This document shows positions 30,621-43,698 of a stretch of DNA of 64,000 nt, piece by piece. The stretch lies in contig JAFWYP010000022.1 in NCBI GenBank assembly GCA_017517665.1, positions 1-64,000 on the forward strand, read 5' to 3'. The stretch comes from Clostridia bacterium (lineage in GTDB: Bacteria; Bacillota; Clostridia; Oscillospirales; Acutalibacteraceae). A program made the translations under genes and the position numbers. Under the pieces are notes generated by a model, which saw nothing but the letters and a program-made list of their open reading frames with translations, was not told where the DNA came from and did no database searches. Numbering within the stretch: position 1 is the stretch's first letter; the number at the start of each line of letters is the position of its first letter.

Positions 30621-31979
30621 TTATTTGGCAAAATACTGCATAACTTTATTTGAAACCGTTGAGGCAACACCCGAGCCCTGCCCTGCGTGCTCGGCAATGC
30701 AGACTATCGCAAGAGGCAAATCCTCCCTCTGCGAATAACCGACAAACCATGAATGGCTCTTTGCGTTATCTATCTGCGCCGTGCCCGTTTTTCCGCACAT
30801 CTGCAGGTTTTCAAACTTCCAATCGCCGTATTTATCCTCAACGTTTGAACGCAGAAGAACCTTAAGCTTTGCGGCGGTTTCGGGATTTATTTTGACGCAT
30901 TCCTGAGTCATTCTGCCCATAATCTGCGAAACCGTACCCGTTGAGCGTATTCTGTCGGGCGCATAACCCGTGCCGCCGTTTGCGATTGCACCCATAAGCG
31001 CAAGAAAATGCGCGGGATTGACATAGGTTGTTGACTGTCCGATACCTGCCCAGCCAAGCTCCGCTTTGCTCGTTGCCGACGGCTCGAACCTGCTCTTTGT
31101 GAGCCTGATTTCCTTTGCGTAAAGCTGGGTGTTAAACCCGAGAGTTTCTGCATAAGCCTTGAGCTTTGCCGCACCGAGTTCAATTGAAATTTCGGCAAAT
31201 GCGCAGTTGCAGGAATTATTCATCGCCTTTTGGAAATCCTGCTTTCCGTGCTCGCCGTTGCAGATAACCGTGCCGTCATCGGTTTCATATTTTCCGTCGC
31301 ACTCAAAAGTACGCGTGTATAAATCGGGGATATTTTCGATTGCACAGCCTGCAGTCACGATTTTCATAATCGAACCGGGGGTATAGATACCCGATACAAC
31401 CTTATCGAGGAATACACCCGAATATTTTTCGTTCGTGAGAAGGTCCTCGGGCTTGCTGTTTATGTCGTAGGTCGGCTTTGAAACACTGCAGAGAAGCTGA
31501 CCCGTTCTGTAATTATACACCGCAACCGCGCCGTTATATTCTCCGAGTGCATTATATGCGATTTTATTTGCCTCGCTGTCGATATTGAGAGTTATATCCG
31601 TTCCTTCGCCGCTTTGTTTGAGGTGATAAATCCCCTCAACCTTGCTGTAGCCCGAAAGCACGTCACGGTAAAGATAATGCGTTCCCGTGGAAATAACGCC
31701 TGCGGTATCTCCCACAACATGAAGCACGGATTTTCTCACTGCCGGATCGGAAGAAAAAATTCTTTCGTTATCCGAGCTTTTAGCAAGCACAACGCCGTTT
31801 TTATCGTAAATCGTACCTGCGTTGACTATCGTTCCGCCCCTGTAAATATGGCGGTTTGCCTTGCTTGATGACCATTCCGAGCCGTTCATTACAAGACTTA
31901 CAACAAATATGCAGACTCCTGCAAGGAATGCGGCAATCAGCGCATAGACTATCGCTGCCCTTTTGGCTGTTATCCTCAT
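30621..31979 (-). CDS. Penicillin-binding transpeptidase (class B, PbpA/FtsI-like)
   Basis: D,D-transpeptidase that cross-links peptidoglycan outside the membrane. The 452 residues begin with one N-terminal anchor helix (about 8-32), then a short non-catalytic domain and the transpeptidase domain. Its three motifs are SxxK in YTPGSIMK, SxN in NNSCNCA and KTG in CGKTGTAQ. The short length resembles PbpA-type proteins paired with FtsW/RodA polymerases, and an FtsW/RodA gene overlaps its start by 4 bp. A second, larger class B PBP is encoded in the mre cluster, so this pair probably serves division or sporulation. Confidence 0.93.
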   Translation of the reverse strand: MRITAKRAAIVYALIAAFLAGVCIFVVSLVMNGSEWSSSKANRHIYRGGTIVNAGTIYDKNGVVLAKSSDNERIFSSDPAVRKSVLHVVGDTAGVISTGTHYLYRDVLSGYSKVEGIYHLKQSGEGTDITLNIDSEANKIAYNALGEYNGAVAVYNYRTGQLLCSVSKPTYDINSKPEDLLTNEKYSGVFLDKVVSGIYTPGSIMKIVTAGCAIENIPDLYTRTFECDGKYETDDGTVICNGEHGKQDFQKAMNNSCNCAFAEISIELGAAKLKAYAETLGFNTQLYAKEIRLTKSRFEPSATSKAELGWAGIGQSTTYVNPAHFLALMGAIANGGTGYAPDRIRSTGTVSQIMGRMTQECVKINPETAAKLKVLLRSNVEDKYGDWKFENLQMCGKTGTAQIDNAKSHSWFVGYSQREDLPLAIVCIAEHAGQGSGVASTVSNKVMQYFAK

Positions 31980-33265
31980 GCCGCGCCTCCTTTCGGTGCG
32001 GTTTTTTTGACGGGTTTTTTAACCGCAACATCGGGTTTCGGAGGCTCAAAGGGTGCACCTGCCGCCCTTATATAAGCTAAAAGTCCCCATGAGCATATCA
32101 TGCTCGAGCCGCCTCGGCTGACAAAAGGAAGAGTTACGCCCGTGAGGGGAAGTAAATCCGTTATGCCGAAAACGTTGAGTGAAAGCTGGAAAAGAAGCAT
32201 TCCCGCGGCTGATACGGCGGCGATTGCATAGAAGGTCGAAGCAGCGGTTTTTGCCGAACGGATTGCAAAAAAAGCAATTCCCGCAAAGCTTAATAGCACC
32301 GCAATTCCGATTAAAAGTCCCATTTCCTCGCAGATAAGACCGAAAACAAGGTCGGTTGATGCCGCATAGACATCGCGCAGTTTTCCCTCGCCGATTCCGA
32401 GTCCGAAAAGTCCGCCGCTTGCCGAATAAATCAGCACTCTCGTCTGCTGATAGCCCGTTGTGTCCATGAAGTCCCACACATGGCGGTATGCCGCAAAACG
32501 GTTGGCAACATAGGGTTTGAAGTAGATAATCAGCGCCGCACCCATGAGTGCAACCGTGCAGATAAGCGCGATTGTTCTGATATCGCCCGAGCGCATGAAG
32601 GCTATGAGAATAAAGGTGAAAAAGAAAATAAGAGCTGTGCCGAAATCTTTCATGAGGAAAAGTGCGCCGACACAGCCGAGCGAAAAGATGATGTATCTTG
32701 TAAGGCTCACGCTTGAAAGCAGCTTTTCGAGGGATACCGCACCGACGAGAACAAAGGCAACCTTAACGAATTCCGAAGGCTGAACGGAGAAAAATCCGAG
32801 GTCAATCCAGTTGAGAGTGCCGTTGATATTCTGCGCCATAACGAGGTTTACCGCAAGAAGTCCGACCGCACCCACAGCGGCGGGATAACGCAGAAGACCT
32901 GCAACATGAACATCTTTGATAAGCAGAAGCATCACCAGATAAACCGCAAGACCGAGACCGATTGCAATTATCTGCTTGAGTGCGAAATCCTCACTGAAGC
33001 TTGCACAGACCGTAAGTCCGATTCCCGAGAGAAAAAATGCGATTGCTTCAAGCTCAAAATAGTCGTTGCCCGTAACGAGCGTGCCGATTAGCATATAAAT
33101 CCACTCCGCGGCAATATATCCGAAGAAAATATAGACCATTTTCAGGCTCAGTTCTTCCTGCCTGCACAAAACACAGGCGGCACAGACAAGCTGAAAAGCC
33201 GTCATGAGCGCCATAACGGTTATCTGCTGAAAATGCGACTGTTTCTTAACAACGGTTTCTGACAA
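31976..33265 (-). CDS. FtsW/RodA/SpoVE-family glycan polymerase
   Basis: SEDS-family peptidoglycan polymerase with about ten membrane helices. Signature parts include NGTLNWIDLGFFSVQPSEFVK, FLMKDFGTALIFFFTF, the ATSTDLVFGLICEEMGLL-like loop and LPLTGVTLPFVSRGGSS. The C-terminus is a Pro/Lys-rich cytoplasmic tail. I place the start at TTG 33265, 8 nt after AAGGAGG. The frame is open to an ATG at 33328, but that codon coincides with the -35 box of the promoter at 33300-33328, so it cannot be in the mRNA from that promoter. It overlaps the PBP gene by 4 bp and most likely forms a polymerase-transpeptidase pair with it. Confidence 0.92.
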   Translation of the reverse strand: MSETVVKKQSHFQQITVMALMTAFQLVCAACVLCRQEELSLKMVYIFFGYIAAEWIYMLIGTLVTGNDYFELEAIAFFLSGIGLTVCASFSEDFALKQIIAIGLGLAVYLVMLLLIKDVHVAGLLRYPAAVGAVGLLAVNLVMAQNINGTLNWIDLGFFSVQPSEFVKVAFVLVGAVSLEKLLSSVSLTRYIIFSLGCVGALFLMKDFGTALIFFFTFILIAFMRSGDIRTIALICTVALMGAALIIYFKPYVANRFAAYRHVWDFMDTTGYQQTRVLIYSASGGLFGLGIGEGKLRDVYAASTDLVFGLICEEMGLLIGIAVLLSFAGIAFFAIRSAKTAASTFYAIAAVSAAGMLLFQLSLNVFGITDLLPLTGVTLPFVSRGGSSMICSWGLLAYIRAAGAPFEPPKPDVAVKKPVKKTAPKGGAA

Positions 33266-33299
33266 TGCGCATCCCTCCTTCCGTCTGAAATACAGATTT

Positions 33300-33328
33300 A
33301 TCATATCACATATCCAAAAATTTTTCAA
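33300..33328 (-). promoter_or_regulatory. Promoter of the FtsW-PBP operon
   Basis: TTGAAA (33328-33323), 17-bp spacer, TATGAT (33305-33300), about 35 bp before the proposed TTG start. Confidence 0.7.
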
Positions 33329-33603: not shown

Positions 33604-34737
33604 ATGGAAGCTTATTTTGACAACAGCGCAACGACCGCACCGTGCTGCGAAGCGGTAAAAGCGGTAACGGAAGCGATGACCCAAAGCTGGGGAAACCCAT
33701 CTTCTCTTCATGCAATCGGCAACAGAGCAAACGCCCTTCTCGAAAGCTCAAGAAGCGATATTGCTTCCCGTCTTTCCTGCTCTCCCGAAGAGATTTTCTT
33801 CACCTCGGGCGGAACGGAAAGCAACAATCTCGCCGTCATGGGTGCAGCCTATCAGATGCGCCGCATGGGCAGAAGGATAGTTTCAACAAGCATTGAGCAT
33901 TCAAGCATCGACGATACTCTTAACCGTCTCGAAGCGGACGGCTTTGAAGTTATAAAGCTCAGGGTTGACAGCTACGGCAGAGTGAATGAAAAAGACCTTT
34001 ACGCCGCAGTCAATTCAAACACAATTTTAATCACGATGATGCTTGTCAATAATGAAATCGGAACAATAATGCCCGTTCAGGCGGCAAAAAGAGCCGCAAT
34101 GATGGCTCGCTCGCCCGCACTCATCCATTGCGATGCTGTTCAGGCGTTCGGAAAAATGCCCGTGAAGCCTGCCGCACTCGGCGTTGACCTTATGACAATC
34201 AGTTCCCATAAAATCCACGGACCCAAAGGCATCGGTGCGCTTTATATCCGCAAGGGCGTGAAGATAAAGCCAAGAACCTTCGGAGGAGAACAGGAAAAGA
34301 AAATCAGACCCGGCACGGAAGCAATGCCCCTTATCGCAGGCTTTGCCGCCGCCGCAAGAGTCCTGCCCGACCCGCAGAAGGAGCTTGAGCATATAACCAT
34401 GCTCCGTGACTATATGGTGTCGAAGCTCACGGAAATTGACGGAATTGTTATCAATTCACCGCCCGATGCCCTGCCGTATGTGACGAATATTTCGCTCATC
34501 GGCATAAAATCCGAGCCGATGCTCAACTTCCTTTCGGACAGAGGAATCTGCGTTTCAAGCGGTTCAGCGTGTTCAAAAGGCAAGAAAAGCCACGTTCTCA
34601 TGCAGATGAATCTCGACCGCAGCAGACTTGACGGTCCGCTGAGAATCAGCTTTTCAAGATTCACCACAATTCAGGAAATAGACGCTCTTATTCTCGGAAT
34701 TATTGAGGGCAAAAAGGTTATAAGAGCTTTGAAATAA
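33604..34737 (+). CDS. Cysteine desulfurase (NifS/IscS-like)
   Basis: PLP enzyme that takes sulfur from cysteine and forms a protein persulfide. It has 377 residues starting MEAYFDNSATTAPC, typical of the family. Key features are the FTSGGTESNN phosphate loop, ISSHKIHGPKGIGAL with the Schiff-base lysine, RPGTEAMPLIAGF, and the persulfide cysteine in SSGSACSKGKKS near residue 325. thiI follows 18 bp downstream, so its main job is probably to feed sulfur to ThiI for 4-thiouridine in tRNA, as the NifZ-ThiI pair does in Bacillus. Confidence 0.95.
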   Translation: MEAYFDNSATTAPCCEAVKAVTEAMTQSWGNPSSLHAIGNRANALLESSRSDIASRLSCSPEEIFFTSGGTESNNLAVMGAAYQMRRMGRRIVSTSIEHSSIDDTLNRLEADGFEVIKLRVDSYGRVNEKDLYAAVNSNTILITMMLVNNEIGTIMPVQAAKRAAMMARSPALIHCDAVQAFGKMPVKPAALGVDLMTISSHKIHGPKGIGALYIRKGVKIKPRTFGGEQEKKIRPGTEAMPLIAGFAAAARVLPDPQKELEHITMLRDYMVSKLTEIDGIVINSPPDALPYVTNISLIGIKSEPMLNFLSDRGICVSSGSACSKGKKSHVLMQMNLDRSRLDGPLRISFSRFTTIQEIDALILGIIEGKKVIRALK

Positions 34738-34755: not shown

Positions 34756-35928
34756 ATGAAAGAAATTATCTTAATCAAAAACGGAGAGCTTGCTCTCAAG
34801 GGTCTTAACAGAAGAACTTTTGAAGATATGCTCATCAAGAATATGAAGCGCAGGCTCGCTTCCGCGGGAAATTTCAAATTCACGGTTTCGCAGTCAACAA
34901 TCGTTGCCGAACCCGAGGAGGGTGCTGACCTTGAGGATGCGGTTGAACGCATCAGAAAGATTTTCGGCATTGCGGGATTTTCAAGAGCTGCGGCTGTTGA
35001 AAAGGATATGGACGTTATTCTGAGAAGCGCCGAAGAATATCTGGCTCCCCAGCTTCTCGGAGTGCGTACCTTCAAGGTTGAAGCAAAGCGTTCGGATAAA
35101 AAGTTCCCCCTCGGTTCTCCCGAAATATGCAGGGAAACGGGCGGATATCTCCTTCGCAAGTTCCCCCATTTAGAGGTTGACGTTCATAATCCCGACATGG
35201 TTGTTACCGTTGAAGTCAGAGATACCCACGCCTATATTCACGGAAAGCAGATAAAGGGTGCAGGCGGTATGCCCACAGGCTCCGCAGGCAGGTCGGCAAT
35301 CCTTATTTCGGGCGGTATCGACAGCCCCGTTGCCGCATACATGATGGCAAAAAGAGGTCTTGAGCTTATCGCGATTCATTTTGCATCGCCTCCCTATACA
35401 AGCGAAAGAGCCGAACAGAAGGTTCATTCACTCTTAAAGCAGGTCAGCAAATATTCGGGCAGAATCACTCTTTATGTTGTTCCGTTCACCGAAACGCAGG
35501 AACAGATCAAGGACAACTGCCCCGAGGATTTATTCACCGTTGTCATGCGCCGCATGATGATGAGAGTTTCGCAGATAATAGCACAGAGAGAGCACGCAGG
35601 CGCACTCATCACGGGTGAAAGCGTTGGTCAGGTTGCAAGCCAGACAATGCCCGCAATCGCCTGCACGGACGCGGTTTGCGAAATGCCTGTTTTCCGTCCT
35701 CTTATCGGCATGGACAAGGATGAGGTTGTTGCAATCTCAAGAAAAATAGATACTTTCGATATTTCAATTCTTCCCTATGAGGACTGCTGCACGGTATTCA
35801 CTCCGAAGCATCCCAGAACACGCCCCACAATCGACTATGTTGAAGAATGCGAAAAGGCACTCGAGGTTGAAAGACTCGTCAACGAAGCGGTTGAGGGAAC
35901 AAGATTTGTTCATATAAATGCTTATTAA
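34756..35928 (+). CDS. thiI: tRNA 4-thiouridine synthase ThiI (no rhodanese domain)
   Basis: Adenylates U8 of tRNA and transfers sulfur to it; it also feeds thiamine synthesis in some bacteria. The 390 residues contain an N-terminal ferredoxin-like part, a THUMP domain (about 60-165) and a PP-loop ATPase domain with ILISGGIDSPVAAYM near 180. Further downstream are TGESVGQVASQT and the EDCCTVFTPKHPRT region. The C-terminal rhodanese domain of E. coli ThiI is absent, as in Bacillus, which fits a dedicated cysteine desulfurase partner just upstream. Confidence 0.96.
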   Translation: MKEIILIKNGELALKGLNRRTFEDMLIKNMKRRLASAGNFKFTVSQSTIVAEPEEGADLEDAVERIRKIFGIAGFSRAAAVEKDMDVILRSAEEYLAPQLLGVRTFKVEAKRSDKKFPLGSPEICRETGGYLLRKFPHLEVDVHNPDMVVTVEVRDTHAYIHGKQIKGAGGMPTGSAGRSAILISGGIDSPVAAYMMAKRGLELIAIHFASPPYTSERAEQKVHSLLKQVSKYSGRITLYVVPFTETQEQIKDNCPEDLFTVVMRRMMMRVSQIIAQREHAGALITGESVGQVASQTMPAIACTDAVCEMPVFRPLIGMDKDEVVAISRKIDTFDISILPYEDCCTVFTPKHPRTRPTIDYVEECEKALEVERLVNEAVEGTRFVHINAY

Positions 35929-36098: not shown

Positions 36099-37343
36099 AT
36101 GTCCGTTTGCGAAATTCTTTCCGTCGGCACGGAAATACTGCTCGGCGATATACTCAACACAAATTCAAAATATCTGTCCGTGCAGCTTGCAAAGCTCGGC
36201 ATATCGGTGCTCCGACACACAACCGTCGGCGACAATCCCGAAAGACTTGCCGCCGCACTTAAAACAGCTCTTGAAAGAAGCGATATCGTTATCGCAACGG
36301 GCGGTCTCGGCCCGACGGCTGATGATATCACAAGAGATGTATGTTGCGAGGTTATGGGTTTTGAAATGACGACCGATAACAGAATCGCCGAAAAAATAAA
36401 GGGATATTTCAACTCAAAGGGTCTTGAAATGCCCGAAACAAATCTCCGTCAGGCTCTCGTGCCCGTCGGCGGCGATGTTTTTGAAAACAATCACGGCACG
36501 GCACCGGGTCTCGGTCTCAAAAAAGACGGCAAGTGCGTCGTCATGCTTCCCGGTCCTCCCTACGAAATGGCGCCGATGTATCACGAAAGCGTGGTTGACT
36601 ATCTTCGTGAATATTCCGACGGTGCAATAGTTTCCCACACAGTCAGGACAATGGGCATAGGCGAAAGCGCAATGGCGGAAATCTGTGCGGATTTGCTCAA
36701 TAATGAAAATCCCACCGTTGCACCCTATGCAAAAAAAGGCGAAGCACTTCTTCGCATCACCGCAAAGGGTGAAACCGAGGAAGAAGCAGAAAAGCTCTGC
36801 ACGCCTGTTATTGACGAGGTCTGCAAAAGACTCGGCAATTATGTTTACGGTATCGACAGCGAAAGCATTGAGCAAAGAGTCGTTGAGCTTCTCAAAGAAA
36901 AAAATCTTAAAATTGCAACGGCGGAAAGCTGCACCGCGGGATATATTCCCAAAAGGATAACGGATATTGCGGGCGCAAGCAGCGTTTTTGATTTCGGCGC
37001 AATCACCTATTCAAACGAAATGAAGCATAAAATTCTCGGTGTGCGCGAAGAAACTCTCGCATCTCACGGCGCGGTGAGCGAACAGACAGCAAGAGAAATG
37101 GCGGCAGGAATACGCCGCGTTTCGGGGGCAGACATCGGAATTTCCGTTACGGGAATTGCAGGTCCCGGAAGCGACGGCACAAACAAACCCGTCGGTCTTT
37201 GCTTCATTGCTCTTGATGCAGAGGACTGCAATATATTTGAAAAAATCGAAACAGGCAAGAATGACAGGGAATATAACCGCTATGTGACGGCATCCCGTGC
37301 ACTCAATCTTGCAAGAGTTTATATAGAGGGAAAGGAGAAATAA
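36099..37343 (+). CDS. cinA: CinA-family protein (NMN deamidase / competence-damage protein)
   Basis: A 414-residue two-domain protein. The N-terminal MoCF-like domain (ILLGDILNTNSKYLSVQL; IATGGLGPTADDITRD; VVMLPGPPYEM) resembles a COG1058 pyrophosphatase. The C-terminal PncC domain carries ATAESCTAGYIPKRI and GISVTGIAGPGSDGTNKPVG and deamidates nicotinamide mononucleotide. All conserved motifs are intact. It is the first gene of a run with two sortases and a membrane protein whose cytoplasmic half looks like a decayed copy of this same protein. The gap to the first sortase is 2 bp. Confidence 0.95.
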   Translation: MSVCEILSVGTEILLGDILNTNSKYLSVQLAKLGISVLRHTTVGDNPERLAAALKTALERSDIVIATGGLGPTADDITRDVCCEVMGFEMTTDNRIAEKIKGYFNSKGLEMPETNLRQALVPVGGDVFENNHGTAPGLGLKKDGKCVVMLPGPPYEMAPMYHESVVDYLREYSDGAIVSHTVRTMGIGESAMAEICADLLNNENPTVAPYAKKGEALLRITAKGETEEEAEKLCTPVIDEVCKRLGNYVYGIDSESIEQRVVELLKEKNLKIATAESCTAGYIPKRITDIAGASSVFDFGAITYSNEMKHKILGVREETLASHGAVSEQTAREMAAGIRRVSGADIGISVTGIAGPGSDGTNKPVGLCFIALDAEDCNIFEKIETGKNDREYNRYVTASRALNLARVYIEGKEK

Positions 37344-37345
37344 AG

Positions 37346-38332
37346 ATGGATTCAAAAAAGATTTGTTCAATTCTGTGTGCCGTTTTTGCGGCGGTAACTG
37401 TGATATTCGCCGCCCTTTCGGTTGTGAATTTCACCAAAAAACCCGATGAACAGACAGAGCTTGAAACAAACGCTTCAAATTATATAATGAACGGCGAAAA
37501 GCTTAATGCACTCGCCGAAACTCTTTCGGGTGTTGTTTCAAACAACATGAAAAAACAGGGCAGCTTCCCCGAGGGTATTCTCGAAGAGCTCAAGCAGCCC
37601 TATTCAATCAACAATAACCTTGTCGGCTGGCTTTCAGTCCCAGGAACAGAGCTTGATACCGCGGTTCTGCAGAGCGATGACAACAGCAGATATCTCAAAA
37701 AGGATTTCTTTGAGAGAAGCACCGTTTCCACCACCTCAACGAACTACGGCAATCTCTATCTTGACTACCGCTGTGTTACCGAGGGTATCTCCAAAAACAT
37801 GGTTATCCACGGCCACACAACAAGCAGAATGGGTTCGGATGTTCCCAAGCAGGCATTCCGTTCGCTTTATGACTACAAGGACAAGCGGAATTTCATTGAC
37901 AGTCCGATAATAAAATACTCCAATCTTTATGAGGAGTATACATATAAAATCTGCGCCGTTTTCCTTTCAACAACCCAGCCTTCCCACGATAACGGCTATT
38001 TCTTCAACTATATTTATCCCGACATGAGCGAAAACAACATGGTCGGATATATAGAGCAGGTAAAACAAAGAGCACTCTACGAAACGGGCGTTTCTCTTGA
38101 ACCCACCGACAGCATAATCACTCTTTCAACCTGCATTTATGACTACGGTAAAAACATCGACACAAGATTTGTTGTTGTTGCAAGGCTTCTCCACGAGGGT
38201 GAAAGCGAAGAAATTGACGCTTCTCTCGTAAAGGACAACCCCGATTACCGCAGACCCCAGATATGGTACAACAGCAAAGGAAAAACAAACCCCTATAAAA
38301 ACACGGCAAAATGGCAGCCAAGCCCCAACTAA
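37346..38332 (+). CDS. Class B sortase, first of two
   Basis: Membrane-anchored transpeptidase that attaches surface proteins to the cell wall or each other. It has 328 residues with an N-terminal anchor helix (about 7-30) and a sortase fold from about 85. The catalytic triad is H157 (VIHGHTTS), C263 (ITLSTCIYD) and R274 (DTRFVVVAR). The TLSTC motif with D-x-R places it in class B. No sorting-signal substrate gene is adjacent. It is very likely cotranscribed with cinA (2-bp gap) and with the second sortase (18-bp gap). Confidence 0.92.
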   Translation: MDSKKICSILCAVFAAVTVIFAALSVVNFTKKPDEQTELETNASNYIMNGEKLNALAETLSGVVSNNMKKQGSFPEGILEELKQPYSINNNLVGWLSVPGTELDTAVLQSDDNSRYLKKDFFERSTVSTTSTNYGNLYLDYRCVTEGISKNMVIHGHTTSRMGSDVPKQAFRSLYDYKDKRNFIDSPIIKYSNLYEEYTYKICAVFLSTTQPSHDNGYFFNYIYPDMSENNMVGYIEQVKQRALYETGVSLEPTDSIITLSTCIYDYGKNIDTRFVVVARLLHEGESEEIDASLVKDNPDYRRPQIWYNSKGKTNPYKNTAKWQPSPN

Positions 38333-38350: not shown

Positions 38351-40441
38351 ATGTCAAAAGATAACATTAACGAAAACAAAAATCCTTCTTCACTTCCCGA
38401 AGGACTCAGCTCAATCGCAGACGACGAAGCGATAACCGAAATCGACCTCGGCGATTTTCTTATCGAAAATTCAAAGTCAACCACTCTTTTTGAGGGATTC
38501 CGTGAGGATATCGAAAAAACGGAAAAAAGCCTTGAATCTGACCTTCAGAGTCTTTATGACGATATCATGGGAAGCGGTCCTGAAACAATCGTACCCAAAC
38601 CCATATCCATGCTTACCGAAAGCGAAGCAGAACCCAAGAAGGTTGTGCTTGCCGACCCCGAGCCTCTCCCCGACGATGAAAACTCCTCTCTCGAGGACCT
38701 CTGGATGAATCCCGATGACTATTTCGATGCCGATATTCCCGTTGTTTCGCTCGACGAAGAAACCGACGTGCAGGAAATTGAAGTTTTTGAGCCTGCTCCC
38801 GAAGAAACCGTTAAAAACGATGACGATGATGCAAAAAGCAGCATTTTCAGCATGATTGATATGCTCAAAAAGGAAACCGATACCGAAACGGGCTTCGACG
38901 ATATTCTTTCGGAAATAGAAGCAAATCCCGAAATTGCTCCCGTTGACACAGAGCTTTCCGCCGCCGCACAGCTCGTTTCGGCTCTCCCCGAAGCGGAAGA
39001 AGGGGCTGAGGAAGAAACGGAAGAAGAGGAAGAGCTTGATTTCTCAGAGGAAGATTTTGACTGGGATGAAATGCTCGGCGATGAAGATGCTCCCGAATTT
39101 TCCGAGGAGCTTCCCGCTATTCCCGAACCTGCAGAAGAAATTCCCGAGGTTGAGGAAATCACGGAAGATATTACCGAAGAAACCGACGGCGAAGTTTTTG
39201 ATACCGACTCGGACGATTTTGAAGCAGAGCTTGCAAGGCTTCTCGGAGACGATAACAACACAGCGGAAGAATCTGCCGTTGAGGAAACCGAAACCGAGGA
39301 GAAAAAAAGCTTTGTAATTAATGTTCCCGATGACGGAAACGATTACGAAAAAGCCGCCGCAACTCCAGAAAAACTCTATCAGTCGGCTCCCATGAGCACA
39401 ACAACCCTCAAAGATGACCCCGAACTGCTCGGCGACGATTATGAGGATGACAAAAAGGACAAAAAGAAGAATAAAAAAGAGAAAAAATCAAAAGAAACCG
39501 AAAATAAAACCTCAGGCGGTGCGGCTGAGGTTGTCAGAAAGATTATTCTTTCAATCTCCATCATCACAATTGTTGTCTGCCTTGCCATGCTTGCCAATGT
39601 ATATATCATTGAGCCATACCGCTTCAAATCGGATGCCGATAAAATCGCAAGCGAAATGAGCCAGAATATCAATACCCACAGCGATGCAACAGTCAATGAC
39701 GCACAGAACAGCACTCCCGATATTGAATACCCGGAGGGAATGCTTGCAAAATACGCAAATCTTTATGCGGCAAATGACGACCTCAAGGGCTGGATTTCAA
39801 TCCCCGGCTTTGAAATCAATCTCCCCATTGCACAGGGCAAAGACAACAGCTACTATCTCAAGAAGGACATTTACGGAAAATACACCCGTTACGGCGTTCC
39901 CTATTTCGATTACAGAATGGATAATTTCAAGACTCTTCACAGAAACTCGGTTATCTACGGTCACAATATGCGCCATGACGACCTCATTTTCGGTATGCTT
40001 GAAAATTACCGCAACATCAGCGGCTTCCGTCAGGCTCCCGTTATCGAATGCAACACGATTTACGGTGACCACACATGGTTTGTTTATGCCGTATTTATCA
40101 CTAATGCCGACAAAGAAGACGATAACGGCTATGTATTCCCCTATAACTTCATTGATATCAGCGACAGAAAATTTGAAGCCTATATCGAAGAAATAGATAA
40201 GAGAAAGCTTTATACAACAGGCGTTGACATTGCCGTAACCGATAAGATTCTTACTCTTTCGACCTGTGCTTACGACTTCGACGATGCAAGACTCGTTGTT
40301 GTTGCAAGAGAAAGAAGAGAGGGCGAAAGCATCGCAGTTGATACCTCAAAGGCTTATAAGAACAACGACCCAAAATACCCGCAGGCATGGTATGACGCTT
40401 ACGGAAAGGATAATACCCACGCAAACGAACCCAGATGGTAA
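38351..40441 (+). CDS. Class B sortase with a ~395-residue acidic cytoplasmic tail
   Basis: A 696-residue protein. The catalytic half (about 430-696) is an ordinary class B sortase with H538 (VIYGHNMR), C638 (LTLSTCAYD) and an Arg about ten residues later (DARLVVVAR). It is close in sequence to the preceding sortase. Ahead of the single membrane helix (about 397-420) lies a very acidic Asp/Glu/Pro-rich stretch with short SLEDLW- and FDDILSEIE-like motifs. It ends in a Lys-rich patch (KKDKKKNKKEKKSK) before the membrane. A sortase normally has only a few cytoplasmic residues, so the tail probably interacts with a cytosolic partner. The product's function is known by family; the tail's is not. 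Confidence 0.9.
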   Translation: MSKDNINENKNPSSLPEGLSSIADDEAITEIDLGDFLIENSKSTTLFEGFREDIEKTEKSLESDLQSLYDDIMGSGPETIVPKPISMLTESEAEPKKVVLADPEPLPDDENSSLEDLWMNPDDYFDADIPVVSLDEETDVQEIEVFEPAPEETVKNDDDDAKSSIFSMIDMLKKETDTETGFDDILSEIEANPEIAPVDTELSAAAQLVSALPEAEEGAEEETEEEEELDFSEEDFDWDEMLGDEDAPEFSEELPAIPEPAEEIPEVEEITEDITEETDGEVFDTDSDDFEAELARLLGDDNNTAEESAVEETETEEKKSFVINVPDDGNDYEKAAATPEKLYQSAPMSTTTLKDDPELLGDDYEDDKKDKKKNKKEKKSKETENKTSGGAAEVVRKIILSISIITIVVCLAMLANVYIIEPYRFKSDADKIASEMSQNINTHSDATVNDAQNSTPDIEYPEGMLAKYANLYAANDDLKGWISIPGFEINLPIAQGKDNSYYLKKDIYGKYTRYGVPYFDYRMDNFKTLHRNSVIYGHNMRHDDLIFGMLENYRNISGFRQAPVIECNTIYGDHTWFVYAVFITNADKEDDNGYVFPYNFIDISDRKFEAYIEEIDKRKLYTTGVDIAVTDKILTLSTCAYDFDDARLVVVARERREGESIAVDTSKAYKNNDPKYPQAWYDAYGKDNTHANEPRW

Positions 40442-40485
40442 AAATCAATTCGTAATCCGGAATTAATCAAGGAAAGGTGATTATT

Positions 40486-42816
40486 ATGGAAAGAAAGGTG
40501 AGCTGTTTCACGCTTTGCGCCGAAAAGGCACAGGGTGCTGCAGACTCTTTAAAACAACGGTTAAACTGCGAAACAATCAACTTCGGCGATGTATCCTCTT
40601 TTGCCGCCGAGGCTGTTGCTCTTGTCGGCAACGGCGGATTTGTTGTTGCCGCTGCACCCGTTGATGTTTTCCTTAATGCCAAATTCCGTTTACTTAAATC
40701 TCTTTCCTTAAAAATTGTAAAAAGCAACAAGATTTTAACTGCTGCAGGCGAAAATCTTCCCGAAAACGCAAAAGAACGCGACCTTCAGTGTGCCGTTCCA
40801 GAAAAATCGAAAGTATATCTCACTCTTGACGGTCTGTTTTCGGCTTTTTCCGTTGATATCGGCAGCGGAACTCTTGTTTTTGTTCCGCTTGACAAAGATA
40901 TGCTTGAGCAGGTCTTTGCTTCAGGTCTTGAAAAGCTTTTCCCCGCACCGAAAAAAACAAAAATGCAGGAGCTTCGCGAGCGTGTAAGCGGCGTTATTGC
41001 AAGCGGAAAAACCGTTGCGGTTTCTCCCTGCGGATGCGGAAAGATGCTGCTCTCGGCAATTTCTGCCGTGCCCGACTGCGAGGAAGCTTTTATCGCTGAT
41101 TCCTCCATGAGAGATAAGGCGGAAAACGAAACTCAGGCTGATTATATTGCACATTGTGCAAAGCTTTCAAAAGAAAATTCATCCGCCGACCTCGGCATTG
41201 CAATTTCGCAGATTGAAACCGACGGCTCCGGTGAACTCGTCACAGTTTGTGTTGCCGATTCCGAAAGAGCAAAGGCTGCAAAGGTCTACGCAAATCCGGA
41301 TGAAGACGGAAAACAGCTCATTGTTGCCGCAATAATCAAGCTTTGTCAGATGCTTGATGAACTTGCTGCAATGCCTGCGCTTGTGAATCCCCATGCGCCG
41401 AAGGCGGTACAGAAAAAATGGGCAAAAAATTCTAAAACCCCGTTGATTATCGCTATCATCGCATTAGCGGTTGCAATCATCGTCTGCTTTGTTCTCGCCT
41501 TTGTTTCTTCCTCGAAAAATGATAAAGATGCGCAGACCTATGCCGCAGGTGACTATATCGAATACGAAGACGCCTATTATGATGACGATAATGTATATGA
41601 GGATTACGGCGGAATTTTCCTCGAGGATGCGGATAACGAAGCTGTTGCTATCGTACCCGAAAGCACCTATTCCTACATAACCTCCGCACCCGCCTCGGTT
41701 TTCACAACAAAAAACGGGACAACCGTACTTCAGACTGTAACAAAGTTAACAACAGCTGTCAGGTCCACAACAAAAACTGCAGTCACCACAACCGCCAAGG
41801 CTCTGACAACCCTCATATCAACCACCGCAAAACCCACAACCACTACAACAAAACCGACCACCTCCACAACAAAACCAACTACAACTACCACAACAAAGCC
41901 GACCACCGTAACCACTACGGTCACAACAACTGCACCTTCAACCTCATCTGCTGCAGAAGGAGTCACAACAACGGCTTCCGAGGTCAAAGGCACATTTATA
42001 TTTAAAGTATACGGCTACGGTCACGGCGTGGGAATGAGTCAGCACGGCGCTATGGCAATGGCAAAAAGCGGCAGCAGCTATGAAGAAATTCTGACTCATT
42101 ATTATCCGGGTACAACAGTCAGAGCAGAAAGTTCAACACCTGCAACAATAAAATACGGCGGCGTTGATGTTCCGATTGTTGAGTATCTCTGCAAAACAAC
42201 AAAGCAGGAAATGGGCTACAGCAGTGCAGGCAAAGAGGCACTCAAGGCTCAGATGGCAACGATTTATACTTATGCAAAGCATAACGGCTTCGATGTGAAG
42301 AGAAGCCAGCACGCATATGCGGATAATTTTGACTTTGCAGGCTCAAAAATCCATGAAGCCTGCCTCGAATATCTCGGAATGACAGCCGACACTGATATCC
42401 CCGTTGCAAAGTATGTCGATTATAACGGCAAGGCGGCAAACACGGTTTATTTCGCATCCTCTGCAGGCAAAACTGCATCGGCAGGCAGCGTATGGTCGGC
42501 AGATACATATCCCTATCTCCGCGGCGGTGTTTCAAGTCCCGAAACCGTTGACGCAACAACCGTTGAAATCAGCGCGTCGGATATGAAGAAATACATCATG
42601 TCCTATGCGAAAGACAACAACAAAACAATCACCCTCTCTGATAATCCTGCGGAATGGCTTGAAATTCTTTCACATGACAAAGCATATAATTCAGGCACGG
42701 GTTATGTTACCGAAATCAGAGTCGGAGATTATAAGCTTAAGGGCAACGCATTCAGATGCTATGTTCTGGATTTCAAAATCCGTTCTCATTGCTTTACATT
42801 TGAATATAAAGATTAA
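40486..42816 (+). CDS. Fusion: CinA-like cytoplasmic part, membrane helix, Thr stalk, permuted SpoIID/LytB domain
   Basis: A 776-residue protein. Residues 1-310 align by eye along CinA: GSGTLVFVPLDKDMLEQ opposite its VVMLPGPPYEM region, KTVAVSPCGCGKMLL opposite TAESCTAGYI, and ADLGIAISQIETDGSG opposite ADIGISVTGIAGPGSDG. The catalytic residues are lost. A membrane helix (about 318-342) and a Thr/Lys/Pro stalk (about 405-500) follow. The outer domain has GYGHGVGMSQHGAMAMA (about 508), which ends SpoIID proteins, placed before the catalytic QEM...EALKAQMATIYTYA block (about 575) and YFASSAGKT (about 655). It probably acts on peptidoglycan glycan strands. The ATG at 40486 has GGAAAGGTG. An in-frame GTG at 40477 is less likely. 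Confidence 0.8.
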   Translation: MERKVSCFTLCAEKAQGAADSLKQRLNCETINFGDVSSFAAEAVALVGNGGFVVAAAPVDVFLNAKFRLLKSLSLKIVKSNKILTAAGENLPENAKERDLQCAVPEKSKVYLTLDGLFSAFSVDIGSGTLVFVPLDKDMLEQVFASGLEKLFPAPKKTKMQELRERVSGVIASGKTVAVSPCGCGKMLLSAISAVPDCEEAFIADSSMRDKAENETQADYIAHCAKLSKENSSADLGIAISQIETDGSGELVTVCVADSERAKAAKVYANPDEDGKQLIVAAIIKLCQMLDELAAMPALVNPHAPKAVQKKWAKNSKTPLIIAIIALAVAIIVCFVLAFVSSSKNDKDAQTYAAGDYIEYEDAYYDDDNVYEDYGGIFLEDADNEAVAIVPESTYSYITSAPASVFTTKNGTTVLQTVTKLTTAVRSTTKTAVTTTAKALTTLISTTAKPTTTTTKPTTSTTKPTTTTTTKPTTVTTTVTTTAPSTSSAAEGVTTTASEVKGTFIFKVYGYGHGVGMSQHGAMAMAKSGSSYEEILTHYYPGTTVRAESSTPATIKYGGVDVPIVEYLCKTTKQEMGYSSAGKEALKAQMATIYTYAKHNGFDVKRSQHAYADNFDFAGSKIHEACLEYLGMTADTDIPVAKYVDYNGKAANTVYFASSAGKTASAGSVWSADTYPYLRGGVSSPETVDATTVEISASDMKKYIMSYAKDNNKTITLSDNPAEWLEILSHDKAYNSGTGYVTEIRVGDYKLKGNAFRCYVLDFKIRSHCFTFEYKD

Positions 42817-42817
42817 T

Positions 42818-42847
42818 AAAAAGCTGTGCTTCGGCACAGTTTTTTTG
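42818..42847 (+). terminator. Terminator of the cinA-sortase-SpoIID operon
   Basis: CTGTGC-TTCG-GCACAG stem (42824-42839) preceded by an A-run and followed by seven T residues, directly after the stop codon at 42816. Confidence 0.93.
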
Positions 42848-42945: not shown

Positions 42946-42974
42946 TTGACAGAGAGGCTTTTCTTCTGTATAAT
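42946..42974 (+). promoter_or_regulatory. Perfect-consensus promoter of the NlpC/P60 gene
   Basis: TTGACA (42946-42951), exactly 17 bp, TATAAT (42969-42974). The start codon at 43042 is about 60 nt after the predicted transcription start. Confidence 0.92.
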
Positions 42975-43041
42975 GTTGAACTGTTGTGTGCCGCGGGTCA
43001 GCGAAAATCAACACTCTCCCGAAGCACATCAGGAGGTTAAA

Positions 43042-43698
43042 ATGAAGATTACACAGAAGATTACCGCACTTTTGGTTATGTCTGCGATTATCGTAAGTGC
43101 CTTTTCATTCAGCGCATTGGGCGTATCTCCCGTAAAGGGCAGTGAGGTTGCACAATTCGCAGCTCAGTTTGAAGGCTGCGGATACAAATATTCAAGCAAG
43201 GGTCCCGATAAATTTGACTGCTCGGGTCTTGTATATTATGTACTTAAGAATTTCGGCATCACCTTCGGTCACAGTACATCCGCCTATAACACGGTTGAAA
43301 AGGCAAAAGAATTCGGCACGGTTATAAAGGATATGAGCAAGGCAAAGGAAGGCGACATCGTTGCATGGAGCGGTCACGCTGCGATATATCTCGGAAACGG
43401 CAAGTGCGTTCACGCAATGAATGAAAGAAAAGGCGTTATTATCAATAACGTTGAAGATTTCATAGACAGCAAGGGTGTCAAAAACCCCTCGCATTTCTTT
43501 ATCAGACCCTTTGATTATGCCGATGAAACCGCAGAAAAAGCTGTTGAAGAAAAACCCGTTGCAAAAACAGCGGCTCAGAGCAATGAGCCCGCCCGGGAAA
43601 AGCTCACATTCCGCGAAAAAATTGAGCATATGTTTGAAAGAATCGGAGATTTTATCAAATCTCCCTTCACTCCCGTTATTGATGCAATCAAAAACTGA
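43042..43698 (+). CDS. Secreted NlpC/P60 peptidoglycan hydrolase
   Basis: Cleaves the stem peptide of peptidoglycan, typically gamma-D-Glu-diamino acid bonds. It has 218 residues with a signal peptide (about 1-30; KKIT-like basic start, hydrophobic ALLVMSAIIVSAFSFSA). The NlpC/P60 domain has the catalytic Cys in FDCSGLVYYV and His in WSGHAAIYLG, and a third polar position is in CVHAMNERK. A charged C-terminal tail ends in amphipathic helices and carries no known wall-binding repeats. The ATG at 43042 follows AGGAGG; codons upstream back to 42946 overlap the promoter. Its strong promoter suggests high expression. Confidence 0.93.
   Translation: MKITQKITALLVMSAIIVSAFSFSALGVSPVKGSEVAQFAAQFEGCGYKYSSKGPDKFDCSGLVYYVLKNFGITFGHSTSAYNTVEKAKEFGTVIKDMSKAKEGDIVAWSGHAAIYLGNGKCVHAMNERKGVIINNVEDFIDSKGVKNPSHFFIRPFDYADETAEKAVEEKPVAKTAAQSNEPAREKLTFREKIEHMFERIGDFIKSPFTPVIDAIKN

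Follow-up and report, generated by a model that had tools for sequence, protein, structure and literature searches.

A predicted membrane protein joining a CinA-derived pseudo-enzyme to a circularly permuted SpoIID/LytB domain at a sortase locus in Clostridia

CinA is an NAD-recycling enzyme in which MoCF (COG1058), KH and PncC domains follow one another (PDB 4CT8, 4UUX). SpoIID is the lytic transglycosylase of sporulation stage II (PDB 5I1T, 5TXU, 4RWR; TIGR02669, TIGR02870, PF08486) whose catalytic block is normally N-terminal and whose GHGVGMSQ block is normally C-terminal. E101 is described as the catalytic residue of the C. difficile enzyme (PMC6934232), and a SpoIID-like protein of C. 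acetobutylicum is named as one of four potential sortase substrates (PMC4877998). The protein described here has relations to both. Its cytoplasmic part shares with CinA the fold and the MoCF to PncC order, but it is without the KH domain and the catalytic residues, is tethered to the membrane and is fused to a wall domain. With SpoIID it has in common the fold, the catalytic Glu and the GHGVGMSQ block, but its segments are circularly permuted, a CinA-derived cytoplasmic part is added, and the zinc-binding residues of the C. difficile enzyme are not kept. Likeness also extends to single CinA-sortase-SpoIID chains of Anaerotruncus sp. (L139) and Ca. Neoruminococcus (L136), which likewise begin with CinA, continue through a hydrophobic helix, end in SpoIID and have thiI upstream; unlike our protein, they keep the KH domain and recognisable CinA domains, carry the sortase as part of one chain and show the usual segment order of SpoIID. 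Within the CC0, BY and BY-SA literature of PMC, a scope outside which preprints and most subscription papers fall, we found no description of a circularly permuted SpoIID and no paper that treats CinA, SpoIID and sortase together.

The gene occupies positions 40486..42816 of the forward strand of the window, by which we mean the whole 64,000-nucleotide stretch of DNA analysed here, from a gut-type bacterium. It encodes 776 residues, from an ATG at 40486 to a stop codon at 42814-42816; an alternative in-frame GTG is possible at 40477 and overlaps the end of AAGGAAAGG upstream of the ATG. Directly 3' of the gene stands a terminator-like hairpin with a T tail (42818..42845, +; consensus match). 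The gene is the last in a same-strand (+) run that consists of a NifS/IscS-like cysteine desulfurase (33604..34737, below every NCBIfam cut-off), thiI (34756..35928), the intact cinA of 414 residues that the preliminary description had already recognised (36099..37343; MoCF, KH and PncC above the Pfam cut-offs), and two class B sortases, srtB1 (37346..38332) and srtB2 (38351..40441), both above the Pfam Sortase cut-off and below that of the srtB equivalog. srtB2 has a long acidic cytoplasmic region; read by eye, an acidic stretch of about 390 residues precedes its hydrophobic helix. Beyond the hairpin lies an NlpC/P60 gene (42946-43698), and other wall-type genes nearby are a divergent FtsW/RodA-like and PBP2-like pair (30621-33328) and mreB (46260).

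The product is almost certainly a bitopic, single-pass membrane protein with a CinA-derived pseudo-enzyme inside, a Thr-rich tether, and a permuted SpoIID/LytB domain outside. The cytoplasmic part of about 310 residues comprises a MoCF (COG1058)-like half (residues 1-157; 40486..40956, +) and a PncC-like half (residues 158-296; 40957..41373, +), each assigned by hhalign and fold search and each with its catalytic motifs lost. Hydropathy predicts a transmembrane helix at residues 321-340 (41446..41505, +); charges read by eye are basic before and acidic after it, so the protein is probably oriented N-in/C-out. The tether (residues 346-496; 41521..41973, +) contains 48 Thr in 151 residues. From about residue 497 to the C-terminal end runs the outer domain, in which the GHGVGMSQ block comes first (41986..42120, +) and the catalytic block second (42157..42810, +): GYGHGVGMSQHGA starts at residue 510 and is followed by QEM...EALKAQ, with E575 (codon 42208..42210, +), and then by YFASSAGKT.

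NCBIfam TIGR02669 (SpoIID_LytB) matches the protein with E 6.9e-33 and 114.7 bits against a cut-off of 83.3, in two stretches; PF08486 scores 22.8 against a cut-off of 23, just under, in the protein scan and 27.9, above the cut-off, in the genome search. To a profile built from 38 permuted domains, SpoIID sequences of known structure align in swapped pieces. Residues 55-280 of 5i1t match profile positions 57-276 and its residues 282-327 then match positions 5-50; 5txu follows the same order, residues 60-205 of 4rwr fall on positions 60-199 and residues 274-320 then on 6-52, and the canonical SpoIID of this same genome splits likewise. Among the matches listed from 291 class genomes, the window's own is the only one to span profile positions 2-277. 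The circular permutation proposed from the block order in the preliminary description is thereby borne out. The AlphaFold model of the outer domain has a mean pLDDT of 96.1, and the sole Foldseek match at E<=0.001 is SpoIID 5i1t (1.7e-7, TM 0.58-0.59), a score of 0.59 that cannot reward a permutation because the aligner is sequential. A permutation would keep the fold and place the termini in a different loop. When each block was searched with a profile of its own, 16 of 80 loci came out permuted and 64 canonical among the best 80 of 487 candidates. The order could be had without a permutation if homologues carried a second, C-terminal GHGVG segment, as the preliminary description had pointed out; this protein has no such segment, nor has any of the 96 permuted ORF records, which include repeats of the same locus, and on this ground we rejected duplication with a hidden second block. 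We also rejected misassembly, since many independent genomes have the identical order. The assignment of the outer domain as a circularly permuted SpoIID/LytB, a permuted variant rather than a standard member, holds on both the sequence comparisons and the predicted model.

E575 aligns with E101 of C. difficile SpoIID, and the catalytic Glu column has E in 38 of 38 profile domains and 72 of 72 permuted rows. In canonical rows it has E in 56 of 71 and a gap in the other 15; the canonical fused relative L244 has a gap here and its cousin L259 has E. The Cys and His that bind zinc in C. difficile SpoIID are not conserved in the outer domain, and according to PMC6934232 they are absent from the SpoIID of Bacilli too. 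The catalytic Glu bears on a rival account, in which the outer domain leaves glycan uncut and, as has been proposed for LytB, binds the wall and enhances the activity of an amidase. Amidase stimulation has been proposed for SpoIID/LytB, and inactive B. subtilis SpoIID is reported to have stimulated in a dye-release assay (PMC6934232); the next gene, at 42946-43698, is of the NlpC/P60 type, though it lies behind the terminator-like hairpin. The same source reports that stimulation was not reproduced with C. difficile SpoIID (PMC6934232), and the invariance of the Glu in permuted rows also speaks against this account, which we consider unlikely. We prefer to read the outer domain as a putative lytic transglycosylase.

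The 776-residue protein probably does not serve as the SpoIID of sporulation, because the host genome keeps canonical SpoIID, SpoIIP and Spo0A. Against TIGR02870 (spore_II_D), it reaches 90.8 bits where the cut-off is 234.75, and the canonical copy elsewhere in the genome reaches 299.7. In the tree, the SpoIIDs of the locus split from 11 other canonical SpoIIDs with support 99/98; the five of these that were scanned, the genome's own copy included, all exceed the spore_II_D cut-off, and the canonical locus SpoIIDs L135 and L144 are below it. Trees were built on 95 and 53 of 143 rows, selected for coverage and spread, and the Ca. Daviesbacteria row was omitted from both AU tests. The 53-row tree needs four order changes, two of them forced by well-supported branches, and a single order change is found in 0% of 200 bootstrap trees of this set. 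One permuted clade is nevertheless not rejected by the AU test (p 0.136), and on a 94-row quick tree (p 0.787) the tree constrained to one permuted clade scored higher. On these phylogenies the permutation would have arisen once or more. The Ca. Daviesbacteria record (L187:4230-5915) combines a permuted SpoIID with a weak match to a PcsB coiled coil, below the cut-off, and its permutation may be independent.

Descent of the cytoplasmic part is not apparent from family searches: Pfam gives no family at E<=0.1 for this part and no CinA match at E<=1 for the 776-residue protein, and a Pfam CinA match is present in just one of 28 genus proteins (E 0.0057). Profile-profile comparison with hhalign matches the 28 genus proteins to 25 CinA proteins at 97.9% (E 4e-13), near end-to-end, and a wider set of 65 proteins to CinA at 99.2% (E 6e-20). 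Six control families (the cysteine desulfurase, ThiI, both sortases, and the FtsW/RodA-like and PBP2-like neighbours) reach at most 4.1% against the cytoplasmic part. An alignment of permuted SpoIID gives 0.1% against the 28-protein set; its 100% against the 65-protein set is no control, as those rows carried their own SpoIID part. Taken separately, the MoCF-like half matches the MoCF half of CinA at 94.5% and the KH and PncC domains at 0.1-0.5%, and the PncC-like half matches the PncC half at 96.2% and MoCF and KH at 0.1-1.0%. No KH match is found, and the KH columns of CinA are a gap in the profile alignment. The AlphaFold model of the inner part has a mean pLDDT of 90.2 and a pTM of 0.61, with the relative placing of the halves unsure. 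Foldseek returns 23 PDB matches at E<=0.001, every one of them a CinA entry (the best with E 9.3e-12), and single-domain CinA chains match each half (3kbq for the MoCF-like half, TMt 0.68-0.70; for the PncC-like half, for example, 5kvk, TMt 0.66). A sequence search of the PDB with the CinA-like profile returned no CinA and only weak matches, the best (E 0.018) being a designed protein. The earlier proposal that the cytoplasmic part follows CinA from MoCF to PncC thus agrees with both sequence profiles and fold, and the reading of residues 1-296 as CinA-derived, with MoCF and PncC halves and the KH domain lost, holds on these comparisons.

When the CinA-like profile (A1) was run against 295 genomes of the order, matches beyond the taxonomic family came from ten genomes, with E values from 8e-11 to 6e-4. 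All ten matches sit in proteins that the CinA profile also finds, nine of them of stand-alone size; the tenth, L229:1270-3495 from another family of the order (G383), is a MoCF-KH-sortase chain that runs off the end of the retrieved stretch. The CinA profile missed L234, a match from the window's own family. Within that family, 47 of 120 genomes have matches to the CinA-like profile at E<=0.001, the weakest of which may be true cinA or chance. The preliminary description took duplication as the simplest origin, given the intact cinA in the run. A cinA duplication further back in time is still the simplest explanation, but a recent copy of the neighbouring cinA was rejected, because the CinA-like part is old and spread over the family and its motifs differ from those of CinAs.

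We scored residue retention over the 28 genus proteins at columns invariant in 25 of 25 CinAs. Glu276 is kept in none, Ser277 in 5, Thr279 in none, Lys309 in 2, Arg390 in 3 and Arg394 in none, and of the three residues Glu276, Ser277 and the general-base Lys309 each protein retains one at most. In GGLGPTxDD, G68 is kept in none, G69 in 3, L70 in 4, G71 in 5, and P72, T73 and D76 in none; D75 and the GTELLLG motif are without an aligned column in this comparison. The substitutions noticed earlier are confirmed, with SPCGCGK (residues 180-186) in place of AESCTAG and SQIETDGSG (residues 241-249) in place of TGIAGPGG. On these tests, of the KH domain and of the catalytic residues, the cytoplasmic part is classed as CinA-derived and not as a CinA enzyme. 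PMC4246079 describes what Lys-301, Thr-340 and the KH domain do in the CinA of T. thermophilus, and in our reading Lys309 and Thr351 are the counterparts of these two residues. The retained fold and conserved sequence would suit a nucleotide sensor that binds ADP-ribose, NMN or a related ligand and switches the outer domain, as would the Thr351 column, which has Thr in none and Ser in all 28 proteins, Ser being found at the Thr-340 position in some true CinAs as well (PMC4246079). Yet the Glu of the PncC site is lost throughout, its Lys is nearly so, the four GGLGPTxDD residues G68, P72, T73 and D76 are gone, and the KH domain, which closes the ADP-ribose site of CinA (PMC4246079), is missing; we regard such a sensor as decidedly doubtful.

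The loss of CinA motifs could also mark a decaying, non-functional duplicate, and the preliminary description spoke of a decayed copy. However, 31 of 37 genus genomes have conserved the gene with its frame open, the gene position is conserved, and dN/dS is about 0.06-0.25 in each folded domain, which largely refutes decay and makes a non-functional duplicate extremely improbable. Over four pairs, in which dS is high for the more distant ones, dN/dS is 0.20-0.25 in the MoCF-like half, 0.06-0.23 in the PncC-like half and 0.11-0.21 in SpoIID; against the nearest relative it is 0.20, 0.06 and 0.19, respectively. Such values despite the lost catalytic residues argue that the CinA part is a maintained pseudo-enzyme under purifying selection, and "decayed" is not an apt word for it.

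The fused permuted protein is present in 31 of the 37 genus genomes (this genome and 36 others), and homologues with the same block order, which the preliminary description had suggested looking for, are found in other genera, Ruminococcus and Ca. Daviesbacteria as well. In three of the 37 (G013, G029, G030) the slot is filled by a CinA-like membrane protein that carries no SpoIID, and a short permuted SpoIID is encoded separately; G009 has only pieces of permuted SpoIID, one at a contig end, and from G005 and G032 neither the fused protein nor its parts were recovered. The fused proteins of G006 and G033 (L067:7105-8886, 593 aa; L068:7561-9210, 549 aa) are without the MoCF-like half. Elsewhere in the genus a sortase gene adjoins the CinA-like gene at 31 of 33 loci, the remaining two being cut by contig ends, and cinA is in the run at 30 of 33, the missing cases again lying at contig ends. 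In the rest of the family we examined 20 regions outside the genus, chosen mostly among the stronger profile matches, and all 20 have an adjacent sortase. Seven of them carry a fused protein, five permuted and two canonical (L244, L259), five have separate adjacent CinA-like and SpoIID genes, all permuted, and eight have a CinA-like gene without adjacent SpoIID. These eight regions and the three genus genomes without a fusion argue that the inner part has a role independent of fused SpoIID. L124 also has the two genes as separate neighbours.

Other arrangements were observed alongside. The neighbouring cinA is reduced to roughly the size of PncC (155-186 aa) in L034, L035, L036, L244, L250, L254, L258 and L260. 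Some proteins of the same genus (446-505 aa) have a hydrophobic helix at the N-terminus and combine a permuted SpoIID with a Peptidase_M23 domain that exceeds its Pfam cut-off (L077:3015-4532, L078:6517-7935, L079:5995-7401, L043:4848-6188). An N-terminal type I dockerin (above the Pfam cut-off) precedes a permuted SpoIID in L251:9735-11096 and L124:4533-5831, and both of these genes lie directly after a separate CinA-like gene.

A comparable locus exists in further Clostridia; there a stand-alone SpoIID is preceded by sortase genes and, in most cases, by thiI or cinA. This SpoIID is canonical in L135, L144, L148, L158, L161, L165 and L175 and permuted in L125-L132 (seven Ruminococcus records and one of Oscillospiraceae, L130). 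In L136:2037-5687 (1217 aa) and L139:1452-5705 (1418 aa), MoCF, KH, PncC, sortase and canonical SpoIID form a single chain, with all domains above the Pfam cut-offs, the hydrophobic helix between CinA and sortase and thiI upstream. L177 (1003 aa) has PncC, KH below the cut-off and SpoIID, with MoCF and sortase unmatched; L152 (766 aa, thiI upstream) has MoCF below the cut-off (E 0.0025) and SpoIID below its Pfam cut-off. The genomes of L139, L177 and L152 also contain a separate full cinA; a search of the L136 genome recovered the fused copy alone. Judged by their domain content, these four proteins are intermediate states such as a coupling of CinA to SpoIID would predict.

The conserved sortase neighbour, the CinA-like and SpoIID genes that stand as separate neighbours, and the L136 and L139 single chains argue for a functional link. 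We think it somewhat probable that the protein as a whole serves a sortase-linked wall module as a tethered lytic transglycosylase, its CinA part being a docking or switch domain. The mechanism, drawn from the anatomy, has not quite an even chance: the transglycosylase would work with the neighbouring sortase B at the wall, cutting those glycan strands that its tether lets it reach, in the zone where this sortase acts, and the CinA-derived part would be a docking or allosteric domain, most likely pairing with CinA or with the cytoplasmic part of a sortase, so that pairing inside would place or time the opening of the wall. The conserved neighbours and the single-chain relatives would suit equally an inner part that is a mere scaffold beside sortase B or CinA and does no switching; sequence cannot separate a scaffold from a switch, and we take the scaffold as quite possible, if short of likely. 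Counted against the tethered transglycosylase with a docking or switch domain are the genomes and regions whose inner part has no SpoIID fused or adjacent to it, the missing MoCF-like half in G006 and G033, the zinc residues not kept, the pTM of the inner part and the gap at the Glu column in L244.

Taken further, a lineage of CinA may have come, at one locus, to control from the inside an enzyme that cuts the wall outside, passing from neighbour gene through fusion with sortase and SpoIID to a pseudo-enzyme without KH, with the outer enzyme permuted once or more and the inner part reporting the state of CinA and NAD, or of sortase assembly, to the wall. We offer this transmembrane coupling as a speculative reading that is probably not the full account. 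A natural circular permutation of SpoIID is a ready test of which lytic transglycosylase loops matter, and because gene order and single chains both tie CinA to sortase B and a wall-cutting domain, a connection between CinA and the cell wall becomes testable.
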